Below, piece by piece: positions 11,161-16,556 of a DNA stretch of 64,000 nt. The first letter of the stretch is position 1, and the number at the start of each line of letters is the position of its first letter. Location: NCBI RefSeq assembly GCF_023195695.1, contig NZ_JALPQG010000007.1, positions 124,001-188,000 on the forward strand. The letters are read 5' to 3'. The position numbers and the translations under genes were made by a program. The notes below the pieces were generated by a model that saw only the letters and a program-made list of their open reading frames with translations, searched no databases and was not told the DNA's origin. Source of the stretch: Aliiroseovarius sp. S1339. Its GTDB lineage: Bacteria; Pseudomonadota; Alphaproteobacteria; Rhodobacterales; Rhodobacteraceae.

Positions 11161-11238
11161 CACACCATTTCCTGATATGATGAAATGTCAACGTCGGGTT
11201 GTCGTTGTGGGAGGGCATGGCGGGTCGGAGGACCGGTC

Positions 11239-11871
11239 ATGGAAACACCAAACTTACCTGCCATTCGCGCTCTTCGTCCTGCCTGGAACAAGGGCCGCAT
11301 CGTCGGTCAGAAACCCCCGCTGCAGCCCAAACACGTTTGGGCAATCAGGGTTCGACTTGAACTGGCCGAAAACCATCGCGACCTCGTGTTGTTCAACATG
11401 GCAATCGACAGCAAGCTTCGCGGGTGCGATCTCGTGAGAATGAAAGTTGTCGATGTTATGGCGTCGGGCCAGATCAGGGATCGTGCATCGGTGTTGCAGA
11501 GCAAAACGCAAAAACCAGTACGGTTTGAGATTTCGGAAGGCACACGTGCGTCGGTCGAGAAGTGGATGCAGGACGAACTTATGGTTGGGTCAGAGTATCT
11601 TTGGCCAGGTCGTTTTCACGAACGCCTACACATCTCAACTCGCCAGTACGCGCGGATCGTCCGCGACTGGGTAACGTCGATCGGCCTTGAAGCGACAGCC
11701 TATGGAACGCACTCGACGCGGCGCACAAAGGTGACACAGATTTACAAGAAGACAGGCAACCTGCGCGCTGTTCAATTGTTGCTGGGTCACACAAAGATGG
11801 ACAGCACAGTTCGGTATCTCGGCGTCGAACTAGAGGACGCATCGGCCATCGCTGAAGCGATTGAAATCTAA
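11239..11871 (+). CDS. Tyrosine recombinase/integrase, orphan
   Basis: 210 residues from ATG 11239, preceded by GGAGG. The catalytic set of a tyrosine recombinase is present: Arg61 (KLRGCDL), a candidate Lys89, His158-x2-Arg161 (THSTRR), His184 (LLGH) and the nucleophile Tyr193 (VRYLGVE). It is compact and lacks an obvious N-terminal arm-binding domain, like the small integrases scattered in alphaproteobacterial chromosomes. No excisionase, phage or conjugation gene is nearby. It could be a leftover of the event that built the accessory block. Confidence 0.9.
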   Translation: METPNLPAIRALRPAWNKGRIVGQKPPLQPKHVWAIRVRLELAENHRDLVLFNMAIDSKLRGCDLVRMKVVDVMASGQIRDRASVLQSKTQKPVRFEISEGTRASVEKWMQDELMVGSEYLWPGRFHERLHISTRQYARIVRDWVTSIGLEATAYGTHSTRRTKVTQIYKKTGNLRAVQLLLGHTKMDSTVRYLGVELEDASAIAEAIEI

Positions 11872-12033: not shown

Positions 12034-12513
12034 CTAATCCGCCATGCGTTCGTCGCGCGTAATCTTGGGTCTAAATGCACCCATGACCATTTCCGTGACC
12101 AGCGGGATGACGTTTGACATACCCACCAGTTTTTCACGTTCCTCAAGCGCCAGAAACGCCTCGCTCAGCTTGCCGTTGGGGACTGATGCTTCGGCCAGAG
12201 TCAGCAACTCCGGCATCATCGGGACGAGGAACACGAAGGCGTTAACCGTCAGAAAGGCCGTGCAGGCCAGTTTGATCCGCATCCACCAGGCGCGCTCGCC
12301 ATATGCAAGCCAAAGGATCAGATCGGTCACAATCTTCAAGCCCAGCCCTGGAAGGATCAGAATGTACGCGCTTTGCAGTTTGTAGATGTAGACCGTGATG
12401 GTCGTCTCGGGGCTGCTATGGGCAAAGAGTGCGCCAATCACGATGTGGGACAGGATGCCGCCCACATACATGATGGTCCCAATTTCGTGCAGGAAGCCGA
12501 TGAATTTGCGCAT
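12034..12513 (-). CDS. Small integral membrane protein, possibly DUF2269/CopD-like
   Basis: 159 residues with about four hydrophobic helices (roughly 8-32, 44-70, 80-102 and a weaker C-terminal one). It begins MRKFIGFLHEIGTIMYVGGI, a pattern like DUF2269/CopD-type membrane proteins whose histidines may bind heme or metal. His9 and His23 are candidates. It lies downstream of the NOX-like flavocytochrome on the same strand with a 76-base gap, and may be a partner subunit. Family and function are tentative. Confidence 0.65.
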   Translation of the reverse strand: MRKFIGFLHEIGTIMYVGGILSHIVIGALFAHSSPETTITVYIYKLQSAYILILPGLGLKIVTDLILWLAYGERAWWMRIKLACTAFLTVNAFVFLVPMMPELLTLAEASVPNGKLSEAFLALEEREKLVGMSNVIPLVTEMVMGAFRPKITRDERMAD

Positions 12514-12589
12514 GGTGGGTCTCCGGTGGTTTGAAGTTGGCCGGGGGCATGGTCGACGGCGGCGTATCCGCCGACTGACCGCTACAGCA

Positions 12590-13852
12590 TTACCGAAACT
12601 CGAAAGCTTCGGTGTGAATGTTTCCGCGACTGACGCCCTCCTTCTTCAGGTCTTTCATTAGGCCGTCGATCATCGGTTTCGGACCGCACATGAAGTATTC
12701 GTAGGTGCCCAGCGGGTCGGGCAGGTTTTCCTTCATCTTATCGACCCGGGCAAAGTTACCCTCGTCCGAGAAAAGCGGGATCAGAGTGATGTTTCGCAAT
12801 TCGCTGGCCCGCGCCTTCAATTCATCGAGGAAGATCGCGTCCTGTTCCTCGCGTGCCGCGTAGACCAGGTGGATTTGCCGATCGTCACCCGGCTGCATCG
12901 CGCGCAGTTTCGACAAAAACGGTGTCAGGCCAATGCCGCCGGCCAGCCAGACTTGCTTCCTTCCGATAGCTCCTGCGGCGTCGAAACGACCATAGGGACC
13001 ACGAACCATGACGTCTCTTCCAGGCTGCAGTTCTTCGCGCACTTTGCGGGTCCAGTCCCCAAGTACCTTCATAGTGAACCGGAGCCGATCTTCGCCGGGC
13101 GAACTCGATATTGTGAAGGGATGCGGTTCCGACCAGCCCTTGCCCTGCACTTCCACAAAAGCAAACTGGCCGGGCTTGAAATCGATCATGTCGCCGACCG
13201 GCTTTAGAACCACTTCAGTGGCGCGCTCCAAAGCGTTGACCGCCTCAATCGTGAACGGAATAGCCGTGCGCCTGTTCATCCCGAACAGAGAGTAGATAAG
13301 AGATGCAGTACCGAGAATTGCTGCCAGCATCAGCAGGATACCTGAAGCGCTGAACCGGTCAAAAAAGATGCCCGGTGCGGTCATGAAATGGCCGATTATC
13401 AGCACGTAGACCACAGCCATGACTTTGTGGGTCGGGCGCCAGCGCGAATACCGTATCTTTCGGTTCAACGCCACGAACAGTCCAATAACCAAGAAGATCA
13501 ACCCCAGCATGCCTAGCGGCGCGGACGGCACTAACGCATTCGCGACCGGATCAACGCTTTCGGGTAGCTCCTTGGGCACACCAAAAAAGTGAACCAATGC
13601 GAAGATTGCCGCGAAAGTGCCCGCGACACGGTGCACCTGGTACATGCGATCCAACCCGCCAAAGAGATCTTCAAAAACTTCCATTCGCGCGGACAGAACC
13701 ACGGAAGACGTCATCAGAAGAAACGCGATCCCTCCCAGCATCGTGGTGCCGGTCGTGCGCGGACCGTGAGCTTCCGGCGGAAATCCCAAATGTAAGATGA
13801 TGAACAACACTAGCGCTGCTGCGATAGCAAGTGGTCCCTGTTGGCGAAGCAT
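12590..13852 (-). CDS. NOX/FRE-type transmembrane flavocytochrome (ferric reductase-like)
   Basis: 420 residues from ATG 13852, which has AGGAGA upstream; an earlier TTG at 13876 overlaps the previous gene. About six membrane helices carry two heme histidine pairs, His74/His88 (x13) and His142/His155 (x12), the spacing of NADPH oxidases and ferric reductases. The cytosolic half has an FAD motif HPFTISS (244-250), a pyridine-nucleotide motif GGIGLTPF (305-312), a CGPKPM segment and the terminal EAFEF. It should pass electrons from NAD(P)H across the membrane to oxygen, ferric iron or a periplasmic acceptor. It follows the EF-hand gene closely. Confidence 0.88.
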   Translation of the reverse strand: MLRQQGPLAIAAALVLFIILHLGFPPEAHGPRTTGTTMLGGIAFLLMTSSVVLSARMEVFEDLFGGLDRMYQVHRVAGTFAAIFALVHFFGVPKELPESVDPVANALVPSAPLGMLGLIFLVIGLFVALNRKIRYSRWRPTHKVMAVVYVLIIGHFMTAPGIFFDRFSASGILLMLAAILGTASLIYSLFGMNRRTAIPFTIEAVNALERATEVVLKPVGDMIDFKPGQFAFVEVQGKGWSEPHPFTISSSPGEDRLRFTMKVLGDWTRKVREELQPGRDVMVRGPYGRFDAAGAIGRKQVWLAGGIGLTPFLSKLRAMQPGDDRQIHLVYAAREEQDAIFLDELKARASELRNITLIPLFSDEGNFARVDKMKENLPDPLGTYEYFMCGPKPMIDGLMKDLKKEGVSRGNIHTEAFEFR

Positions 13853-13876
13853 GATCAGGTTCTCCTCGTATTTCAA

Positions 13877-14368
13877 CTATTCTGCTGGGGGTGGATTGAT
13901 GGCGGCGCGGGCCGCGACGTTAACGGAGAACCCAAGAAGGAACTCTTCTTCGGTCAAGACGGCATCGTTGTTTGCATCGGCACGTCTGAAGTCGGACATC
14001 AGCGACTGGCGGTGTTCGGTGCGCGTGATCTCGTTGTCACCGTCACGATCCCAAAAGGCGAATACGACACGCATGGCGGTCTCAAAGGCCTCCGCCCTGC
14101 CTGCATCCTCGGCCACTTGTTCCAAGCCGAAGCCCCAAGAAAGGAACTCTCCCAAAGACAGCTTGTTGTTTTGGTCGTTGTCCATCGAGACAAACACATC
14201 GCCGCCGAAATTCGAGAACTCGCCTTGGTCTATATATCCGCGTTCGGCCGTATCCACCGACTGGAAGGCTAACTTGGCGAGGTCGCCTCCTTCGCTGGAT
14301 TGAGCAATGGCGCCGACCGGAGCCGCGAGCGCTCCAATCAGCAGTGAAGTTGTGAAAGTTGTCCGCAT
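13877..14368 (-). CDS. Exported protein with four EF-hand calcium loops
   Basis: 163 residues from ATG 14368 (AAGGGGGA upstream). A signal peptide ends near IAQ (about residue 23). Four 12-residue EF-hand loops can be read: 39-50 (degenerate at positions 3 and 5), 63-74 (DNDQNNKLSLGE), 107-118 (DRDGDNEITRTE) and 131-142 (DANNDAVLTEEE), as in calmodulin. It is probably a periplasmic calcium-binding protein. Its stop lies 24 bases before the flavocytochrome start, so the two are surely co-transcribed. The gene is divergent from the MarR regulator with shared operator-like repeats between them. Confidence 0.87.
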   Translation of the reverse strand: MRTTFTTSLLIGALAAPVGAIAQSSEGGDLAKLAFQSVDTAERGYIDQGEFSNFGGDVFVSMDNDQNNKLSLGEFLSWGFGLEQVAEDAGRAEAFETAMRVVFAFWDRDGDNEITRTEHRQSLMSDFRRADANNDAVLTEEEFLLGFSVNVAARAAINPPPAE

Positions 14369-14419
14369 GAATGGGTCCCCCTTGTTGAATGTGATCGTGC
14401 TAAGCGCGAGTCGCTTGAC

Positions 14420-14469
14420 TTGTATATGCATAACTTGCAATTGCAAATGTTGTAAACACACATATACAA
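14420..14469. promoter_or_regulatory. Operator-like repeats between the EF-hand gene and marR
   Basis: TTGTATATG (14420-14428) and CATATACAA (14461-14469) form an exact inverted repeat. Nested between them is the perfect 12-base palindrome TTGCAATTGCAA (14435-14446), and a related TTGCAGTGCA follows near 14480. Palindromes of this size and AT-rich make-up are usual MarR targets. The region holds both divergent promoters, so the MarR protein probably represses itself and the EF-hand/flavocytochrome unit. Confidence 0.6.
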
Positions 14470-14529
14470 ATGCAACACTTGCAGTGCACGAGGCGCGGGG
14501 TTATGGCATTGACTAGGAGGCACTACGTC

Positions 14530-14970
14530 ATGACCCAAGTCCCTGAACCAAATGGGATTCGAGAGAGTAGCTTCGGCTTTCTAATCCAGACGCTTGCGCG
14601 GCGTATTGATGCTGACATGAAAGAACGCCTGAAAGAACACGGCGTAGACTTGAAGATTTTTGCCAACCTCATGTTCCTATCTGCCAAGGATGGCATAACG
14701 CAGCGTGAAATCGGAAACGAGTTGAACTTCCCTGACTACTACACCAGCAGAAACGTCGATGCCTTGATCCAGGAAGGTTTCGCCGAACGACGCCCAGACC
14801 CAAAGAGCCGTCGGACAACCCTGATCTTTCTAACCCCGAAGGGTCGTAAGAAGGCTGCCGAGCTGCCGAAGGTCATCTGGGCATCGAATGAGAAGTCATT
14901 GGCCAGACTGAGCGCAAACGAACGAAACCAGGTGATGCATTTGCTGAAGAAAGCTGCTGGAATGGGCTGA
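14530..14970 (+). CDS. MarR-family transcriptional regulator
   Basis: 146 residues from ATG 14530, preceded by AGGAGG; an upstream in-frame ATG at 14470 overlaps the operator region and is less likely. The winged helix-turn-helix runs about 45-105 (GITQREIGNELNF, then SRNVDALIQEGFAERR, and RRTTLIFLTPKG for the wing). MarR proteins bind short palindromes as dimers and release on binding small phenolic or oxidised ligands, or on cysteine oxidation; I see no cysteine in this protein. Its divergent partner unit encodes an exported calcium protein and a transmembrane flavocytochrome. Confidence 0.88.
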   Translation: MTQVPEPNGIRESSFGFLIQTLARRIDADMKERLKEHGVDLKIFANLMFLSAKDGITQREIGNELNFPDYYTSRNVDALIQEGFAERRPDPKSRRTTLIFLTPKGRKKAAELPKVIWASNEKSLARLSANERNQVMHLLKKAAGMG

Positions 14971-15324: not shown

Positions 15325-15957
15325 CTAGCGCGACGTTGTTCGATAAGTCCAAATCCGCAGATCAGCGAGCGCCTTCACGGTCGCGGCGAGGACCAGCACG
15401 CAAAGCGCTACCTTCGATATCGTCTCCATTGTTCCTTCAATCAACATTGCATGAACCACGCTTCCCGCAACAACCACCGCCGCAAGGGCCGTGTGGTAGC
15501 GGCGCCAATGACGCGGTCGCAGGCGCAATCGTCGGCGCAGCACGCCAAGCAGCGCGGCGGCGAAGACGGCCCACATGGCAATCACGCCCCAGGCTGAAAA
15601 CGGCGTCGGCGACCTGAACAGAAATGCATCAATTACGTCTGGTGGGCTGGTTATCCAAAGTGCCAAAACGTGAACTATGACGCTCACAACCGTTGCGACC
15701 CCGACCCAGCGATGCGCGCGCCGCCCACGAAACCCTGACAGGCCGGGTAGGTATCCGGCCACCAACAAAGGCTGAACAAGCAAGAGGGTCATTGCGAATA
15801 TTCCAGCGAACCCAGCCAGGATGTAGATCGGATCGCGCCATGCAAGAAGTGGGCTCGATGCTGACAAAGCAATCGGTGCGGCGGTGACAATGGTCAGAGC
15901 CATCCAAATCAGAACAGCACGAACCAAAATCATTTGCTTTTTGCCCAGTCCGATCAA
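15325..15957 (-). CDS. Heme-type six-helix membrane protein (ferric reductase-like/YedZ-MsrQ-like)
   Basis: 210 residues with about six membrane helices and no flavin domain. Two histidine pairs with x13 spacing, His82/His96 and His155/His169, are placed to hold two hemes, as in ferric-reductase-like membrane domains including MsrQ. The start TTG at 15957 overlaps the TGA of the upstream gene (TTGA), suggesting coupling; an internal ATG at 15933 is the alternative. Its partner is a Tat-exported protein, the same arrangement as MsrP-MsrQ but with an unrelated exported protein. Electrons would come from the quinone pool or a flavin reductase, which is inference. Confidence 0.8.
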   Translation of the reverse strand: MIGLGKKQMILVRAVLIWMALTIVTAAPIALSASSPLLAWRDPIYILAGFAGIFAMTLLLVQPLLVAGYLPGLSGFRGRRAHRWVGVATVVSVIVHVLALWITSPPDVIDAFLFRSPTPFSAWGVIAMWAVFAAALLGVLRRRLRLRPRHWRRYHTALAAVVVAGSVVHAMLIEGTMETISKVALCVLVLAATVKALADLRIWTYRTTSR

Positions 15958-16442
15958 ACCGGCTGGAGGACGAAATGCGCCTCAAGTTCGGTATTCTTGG
16001 CGCTCGACATCACGGGACGCAGAAAAACAGTTTCGAAGTCATCGCTGTCATAGGCAAGGTGGCCGTGCGGTTGGCCGAAGGCCGGCACAATTTGCGGCAT
16101 CTCAAGGCGGAATTTCCCGTTTGCGTCTGTAAGGGTGGCGCCATGACTGTGAGGGTCGCGTTCATGCCCTTCGGTCGTATGCGCCCAGATTTGAATGCGT
16201 TGGCCTGAAAGCGCGGTACCATCACCTGCGCGGCGCACAGTGCCCGTCATCCAAAACCCGCCACCGCCGATCCGATCCACGATAGGCGCGCCGGGTATAT
16301 AGTTGTTCGACCCACCCCGCATCGAGCGTGTTGGCGCAAGGCTTTGAGCACGCGCGGGGACAATGAGGCCGGACGCTCCGGATACCGCCAAGGCACCGCC
16401 TGCGACAATCAACTTGCGACGCGTGATCAGCGAATGTGTCAT
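15954..16442 (-). CDS. Tat-exported intradiol-dioxygenase-like protein
   Basis: 162 residues from ATG 16442, with AGAGG upstream. The Tat signal is TRRKLIVAGG at 7-16 (Arg8-Arg9), with likely cleavage after ARA/AQ near 33. The rest resembles the beta-sandwich of intradiol ring-cleavage dioxygenases: GTVRRAGDGTALSGQRIQIW at 67-86 and PHGH at 125-128 with the His-x-His iron pair. The two iron-ligand tyrosines of protocatechuate dioxygenase are not in their usual places (PAFGQ before the His pair, AHTTEGH after IW). It may bind another metal or be non-catalytic. It is coupled to the heme-type membrane protein downstream. Confidence 0.75.
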   Translation of the reverse strand: MTHSLITRRKLIVAGGALAVSGASGLIVPARAQSLAPTRSMRGGSNNYIPGAPIVDRIGGGGFWMTGTVRRAGDGTALSGQRIQIWAHTTEGHERDPHSHGATLTDANGKFRLEMPQIVPAFGQPHGHLAYDSDDFETVFLRPVMSSAKNTELEAHFVLQPV

Positions 16443-16556
16443 TTTTAATGCCTCTTTTTGAGCGTTTGAGCGCACTGTAGATTAGCGAACCTGCGCGTTA
16501 GTGCTCCAGCATCACACCACCGCTTTTTCCCATTCGAACGGGCGGTTCAGGCAACG

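Follow-up and report, generated by a model that had tools for sequence, protein, structure and literature searches.

A predicted periplasmic EF-hand protein encoded beside two kinds of transmembrane b-haem cytochrome in Rhodobacterales

The nearest solved relative of the flavocytochrome analysed here is SpNOX of Streptococcus pneumoniae, a transmembrane NAD(P)H oxidase (PMC11031084). In the definition of Hajjar et al. (2017, PMC5676040), a bacterial NOX carries two His-x12/14-His haem motifs, in the third and fifth membrane helices, and the FAD motif H[PSA]F[TS][LIMV]. SpNOX differs from our locus in that, in the available excerpts of the papers describing it (PMC5676040, PMC11031084), it is presented as constitutively active and an EF-hand partner is not mentioned. 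EF-hands are linked to a NOX-type flavocytochrome in NOX5 and in the cyanobacterial NOX5-like proteins, as they are here. The EF-hands of NOX5 are cytosolic, and for SpNOX we know of no partner.

Exported partners have been described for other membrane redox proteins. In MsrPQ (PMC5676040) an FRD membrane protein likewise feeds a periplasmic partner; this partner, MsrP, is a molybdoenzyme acceptor, whereas the EF-hand protein studied here has no evident cofactor. In LcoA-BcnA a cytochrome b561 is likewise genetically tied to a haem-free exported partner (PMC9113575), which differs in being a lipocalin and not an EF-hand protein; the word MarR is absent from that paper.

We analysed a stretch of 64,000 nucleotides from Aliiroseovarius sp. 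S1339 (the window), part of a 3.54-Mb genome. An earlier sequence-only reading had proposed that an exported four-EF-hand protein, a NOX/FRE-type flavocytochrome and a small membrane protein form one unit under a MarR regulator, and all of the genes it named are present (Table 1).

Table 1. Features of the EF-hand/flavocytochrome locus, in window coordinates.
Feature	Position	Strand	Description and basis
Exported EF-hand protein	13877..14368	-	163 aa; Pfam EF-hand families, alignments, loop analysis, AlphaFold, hydropathy
NOX/FRE-type flavocytochrome	12590..13852	-	420 aa; Pfam, motifs and conservation, nearest solved structure, hydropathy
Small helical membrane protein	12034..12513	-	159 aa; no Pfam family; optional module member
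MarR-family regulator	14521..14970	+	149 aa, divergent; Pfam MarR_2; no cysteine
EF-hand/MarR intergenic region	14369..14520	.	Conserved TTGCA/GCAAGT repeats (intergenic alignment, NOX-type loci)

On the minus strand the EF-hand gene, the flavocytochrome gene and the small membrane protein gene follow one another in one tight run (14368-12034), separated by 24 bp and 76 bp and with purine-rich, ribosome-binding-like stretches ahead of the starts. With such spacings the three genes would form a single operon. The MarR gene starts 152 bp from the EF-hand gene on the plus strand, and the repeats conserved between them include the palindrome TTGCAATTGCAA; this region is probably a two-way promoter with a putative MarR operator. 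A sigma-70 consensus scan found no promoter in it, and promoter and terminator consensus scans returned sites no more numerous than in shuffled sequences. Roughly 160 bp beyond the last gene of the module, and convergent to it, lies a phage-type integrase gene (11185-11871, plus strand; Pfam Phage_integrase), a possible sign of mobility. Plasmid records contained no relative of the flavocytochrome (E<=1e-60) or of the EF-hand protein (E<=1e-15).

The flavocytochrome matches the Pfam families Ferric_reduct (2e-14), FAD_binding_8 and NAD_binding_1, and hydropathy places six membrane stretches in it. Its nearest solved structure is SpNOX (PDB 8qt6, E 4e-52), with which it shares the domain order, the haem spacing and the FAD and NAD(P)H domains. 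Two bis-histidine pairs, H74-x13-H88 and H142-x12-H155, fit the two-haem definition of Hajjar et al. and are invariant in 17 orthologs, while HPFTI at residue 244 fits the FAD motif. HPFT, GGIG and CGP are kept in all 17 aligned orthologs. For a further bacterial NOX motif of the same authors the window protein is a near miss (GIGLTP, with Leu at position 4), and the GIGITP of the ortholog at locus L049 fits it. Together the domains and motifs speak strongly for transmembrane electron transfer. In kind, the module is a variant form of bacterial NOX/FRE flavocytochrome to which an exported partner has been added.

Whether oxygen is the acceptor is less easily read from the residues. In NOX2, His-119 in TM3 has been tied to superoxide-forming NOX, and a Thr-178/Gly-179 pair in TM4 is a feature of ROS-generating NOX (Zhang et al. 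2013, PMC3591440). The residue four positions after the second TM3 haem histidine, the counterpart of His-119 by spacing, is Val92 in 17/17 orthologs, and the TM4 stretch of the window protein, read on its own, shows no Thr-Gly. Since SpNOX also lacks that histidine at the aligned position and yet makes superoxide (PMC5676040), Val92 does not exclude oxygen as the acceptor.

The gene order is conserved, and the earlier observation proves stronger than it was put. Our ortholog search, covering 295 genomes of the order and the genome contig collection, yielded 22 distinct orthologous loci (61-90% identity) once duplicates had been removed (L008 = L041, L009 = L051, L010 = L052). The EF-hand gene lies directly upstream of the flavocytochrome gene in 20 of these, an adjacency that exceeds chance and answers the objection that the two genes might rarely be neighbours in other genomes. 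A divergent MarR gene is present in 21/22 loci; the small membrane protein gene was found in only 9/22. Pairwise distances among the EF-hand, flavocytochrome and MarR proteins are correlated (Mantel r 0.59-0.68, P about 0.0005; 17 loci). At L051 and L074 (genome G236) a frameshifted flavocytochrome and a truncated EF-hand protein occur at the same locus, which suggests that the genes of the module decay together.

Two Shimia loci (L045 and L047) keep the flavocytochrome and MarR genes and have no EF-hand gene. Whole-genome searches for EF-hand homologs found none in one of these genomes and only a match at E = 1e-6 in the other, so the flavocytochrome can be kept without a strong EF-hand homolog. 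Around distant flavocytochrome homologs (29-34% identity; 40 loci) no EF-hand ORF was found within about 1.5 kb, using a scan that detected 16/16 control loci.

The EF-hand protein begins with a hydrophobic, signal-like stretch followed by an AxA-type site (hydropathy), and its AlphaFold model contains two EF-hand pairs (mean pLDDT 80). It has its own gene and its own signal stretch, is separate from the flavocytochrome, as had been proposed, and is predicted to be exported to the periplasm. Loops 2-4 (residues 63-74, 107-118 and 131-142) are canonical 12-residue loops with conserved ligands, and loop 1 (residues 39-50) is degenerate in all NOX-type members. By fold and loops this is an EF-hand calcium-binding protein; the proposal of four EF-hands was right about the fold, but only three loops look calcium-competent. 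The mature part contains no cysteine, making the protein unlikely to be an electron carrier. Its design also differs from that of NOX5, where the EF-hands are fused at the N-terminus of the oxidase (PMC3591440), whereas the window encodes a separate exported protein of a family that is also used with cytochrome b561.

Lanmodulin, which likewise is periplasmic and has two EF-hand pairs, is the best fold match to the EF-hand protein. Loops within each pair are 12 residues apart in our protein, the same gap as in lanmodulin. We rejected an identification as lanmodulin itself, with a score of 24.8 bits against a LanM cut-off of 135 and no Pro2 in the window loops.

This resemblance bears on the possibility that the flavocytochrome reduces ferric or cupric ions for uptake while the EF-hand protein helps to bind or shield the metal. 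The nearest fold in the structure search, the loop pairs with their 12-residue gap and the Ferric_reduct core without the NOX-specific histidine would all suit such a metal reductase. The EF-hand loops, however, are of the calcium type, and those of the window protein have no Pro at position 2. Inspection of the flanks revealed no recognisable metal transporter, and the regulator is MarR and not of the Fur type. We judge this reading very improbable.

The most informative result came from the second partner of the EF-hand family. We searched 290 Rhodobacterales genomes with an EF-hand profile, and each of the 23 strong homologs (E <= 1.2e-34) was found beside a transmembrane b-haem protein, which was the flavocytochrome in 7 cases and a cytochrome b561 in 16. 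The b-haem gene is always directly downstream of the EF-hand gene (23/23, later 3/3); the three further copies, all of the MarR/EF/b561 kind, come from genomes G1021, G1014 and G1020, chosen only for their NOX-type locus. The b561 partner is about 180 aa long, matches the Pfam prokaryotic cytochrome b561 family (7e-26) and has a divergent MarR gene too. Scores of 91.5 and 89.7 bits pass the PF01292 cut-off of 30.1, placing these partners in the Pfam family of the E. coli cytochrome b561 CybB, a superoxide oxidase; against the NCBIfam model PRK11513 cytochrome b561 the score is 40 bits, with a cut-off of 170. The calcium ligands of loops 2, 3 and 4 are kept in both the NOX-type and the b561-type EF-hand proteins. 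Since the EF-hand family pairs more often with b561, the protein is not a NOX regulator as such.

The order EF-hand gene then b561 gene also holds at L097, from another alphaproteobacterial family, and in the distant member L079. A class-wide search matched only 3/385 genomes, suggesting that the family belongs mainly to Rhodobacterales. In the EF-hand tree the NOX-type members occupy one branch (87/96) with the b561-type members around them; the root is not firm within this set, and the topology is consistent with one partner change.

Other neighbours were noted at some loci. At the distant EF/b561 locus L118 (2407-4216), the gene after b561 is dioxygenase-like (PF00775) and has a possible export leader. 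In a second b561 subgroup (L106:7486-8025, L109:3539-4072) a Polyketide_cyc2 (SRPBCC-type) gene lies about 1 kb downstream of b561. At L075 and L076 distant exported EF-hand proteins are encoded directly after a gene that is NuoF-like by eye.

Could the EF-hand protein simply share the MarR regulator with the cytochromes and never contact them, buffering calcium or countering stress in the envelope on its own account? The two Shimia genomes, which lost the EF-hand gene and kept MarR and flavocytochrome, would agree with this, as would the fact that the two membrane partners belong to unrelated families and that remoter EF-hand homologs (E about 1e-20 to 1e-29) have unrelated gene neighbours, for example a NuoF-like gene just before them. 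We nevertheless consider mere co-regulation rather unlikely, because no member of the strong family lacks the b-haem protein directly downstream, and one partner serving two unrelated cytochromes points to a shared haem task and not to a shared promoter.

The sequence-only reading had compared the locus with NOX5 and suggested a calcium-gated electron transfer or superoxide system, an interpretation borne out only in part. Seawater contains about 10 mM calcium, and in a marine bacterium a periplasmic EF-hand protein would probably be saturated and constantly calcium-loaded. This predicted location, the commoner pairing with b561 and the two genomes that keep the flavocytochrome without the EF-hand protein make NOX5-style gating unlikely. 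The analogy itself breaks down on the separate, exported EF-hands and on their more frequent partner (16/23). A calcium-gated, superoxide-producing NADPH oxidase, a bacterial equivalent of NOX5 split in two and with its calcium sensor outside, would draw on the NOX-type core with its HPFT and haem motifs, on the superoxide formed by SpNOX, its nearest solved relative, and on the extracellular superoxide of Roseobacter-clade bacteria, for most of which the responsible enzymes are unidentified (PMC6414704). Against it stand Val92 and a TM4 stretch in which no Thr-Gly was seen, in addition to the saturation, partner choice and dispensability just given, and we judge it very unlikely.

Taking these results together, we lean towards a MarR-controlled module in which electrons taken from NAD(P)H leave for the periplasm and the EF-hand protein, loaded with calcium, is the periplasmic partner. 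What the sequences themselves show is the gene order and its conservation, the domains, the haem and cofactor motifs and the exchange of partners; the direction of the electrons, the periplasmic contact, the calcium loading and the control by MarR are what we infer. Cytoplasmic NAD(P)H would reduce the FAD of the flavocytochrome, from which electrons would pass to an inner haem (His74/His142), to an outer haem (His88/His155) and on to a periplasmic acceptor, which may be oxygen, a metal or a protein. At the outer-haem side the calcium-loaded EF-hand protein would not carry electrons; it may dock, stabilise or steer their delivery. The same partner would play this part with cytochrome b561, which is likewise a membrane protein with two haems. 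In one subgroup of b561 loci the circuit may be completed from separate pieces, a membrane-anchored FAD/NAD(P)H reductase being encoded on its own.

One purpose such a module might have, overlapping with electron export, is defence of the envelope against redox stress, both cytochromes supplying reductant to a radical- or quinone-linked scavenger in the periplasm, as has been suggested for LcoA-BcnA. MarR regulators often respond to stress or aromatic compounds, which would suit this purpose. So would the published arrangement in which a b561 and an exported partner act against lipid peroxyl radicals, and the oxidation of superoxide by E. coli CybB with transfer of the electron to quinone (PMC9113575). 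The EF-hand protein, however, has no evident redox cofactor, cysteine or lipocalin fold, and we hold this purpose to be possible rather than probable.

The split arrangement concerns one b561 subgroup. A small Anthrone_oxy-like membrane protein follows b561 in 10/16 b561 loci, as well as at L121, and in 8 of the 11 loci of this subgroup a separate reductase is encoded downstream. This 381-aa protein has a membrane part (4TM) at its N-terminus and, at its C-terminus, an FAD/NAD-binding part akin to the flavocytochrome's dehydrogenase, so that the parts united in the single flavocytochrome chain can, in the b561 type, be spread over several chains. Judged by gene content, b561 plus the reductase may correspond, in split form, to the fused flavocytochrome. 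The arrangement is not general, since the reductase was not seen within the flank read in 13/21 b561-type loci.

Small membrane proteins recur in both settings, Anthrone_oxy-like ones being found in many NOX-type loci as well as in b561-type loci. The 159-aa protein of the window gave no significant match in the fold search, and its model is helical (pLDDT 74.5). Its homology to the membrane part of the separate reductase, suspected by eye, was not borne out (hhalign probability 3%, E 0.014). At L036 (7270-8154), L048 (7264-8131) and similar loci two extra small membrane genes, one Anthrone_oxy-like and one without a family, separate the flavocytochrome from the small membrane protein; the window does not have them.

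A broader and more doubtful proposal is that the periplasmic EF-hand protein may serve Rhodobacterales as a general plug-in for b-haem proteins that export electrons across the membrane, its family having passed from one cytochrome to another, unrelated one. The resulting complexes would be calcium-dependent and previously undescribed, and would be candidates for producing or controlling the superoxide found outside the cells of marine Roseobacter-clade bacteria. In the open-licence literature we found no paper linking an EF-hand protein to the flavocytochrome or to cytochrome b561; judged by title and abstract, the listed 15 of the 19 papers containing both 'cytochrome b561' and 'EF-hand' do not seem to have this link as their subject. 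Searches of the same literature for EF-hand with MarR in Rhodobacteraceae and for DUF1772 with b561 also returned none. If the EF-hand protein contacts the cytochromes, it would be a calcium protein that partners transmembrane electron export from outside, the opposite of NOX5 in side and in design. The module supplies named, deletable candidates for the enzymes behind Roseobacter-clade extracellular superoxide, and the two unrelated cytochromes that share one partner also offer a natural experiment on which features the EF-hand protein recognises.

Finally, a second membrane redox protein is encoded nearby. At 15325-16475 (minus strand) the gene for a YedZ/ferric-reductase-like membrane protein adjoins that for an exported protein with a twin-arginine-like leader, for which only a sub-threshold, dioxygenase-like similarity was found. 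This pair was not seen in other NOX-type loci, and we treated it as a separate system. The exported protein occurs in 80/197 genomes, and the two genes stand side by side in all 19 other loci read (19/19), an MsrPQ-like arrangement.
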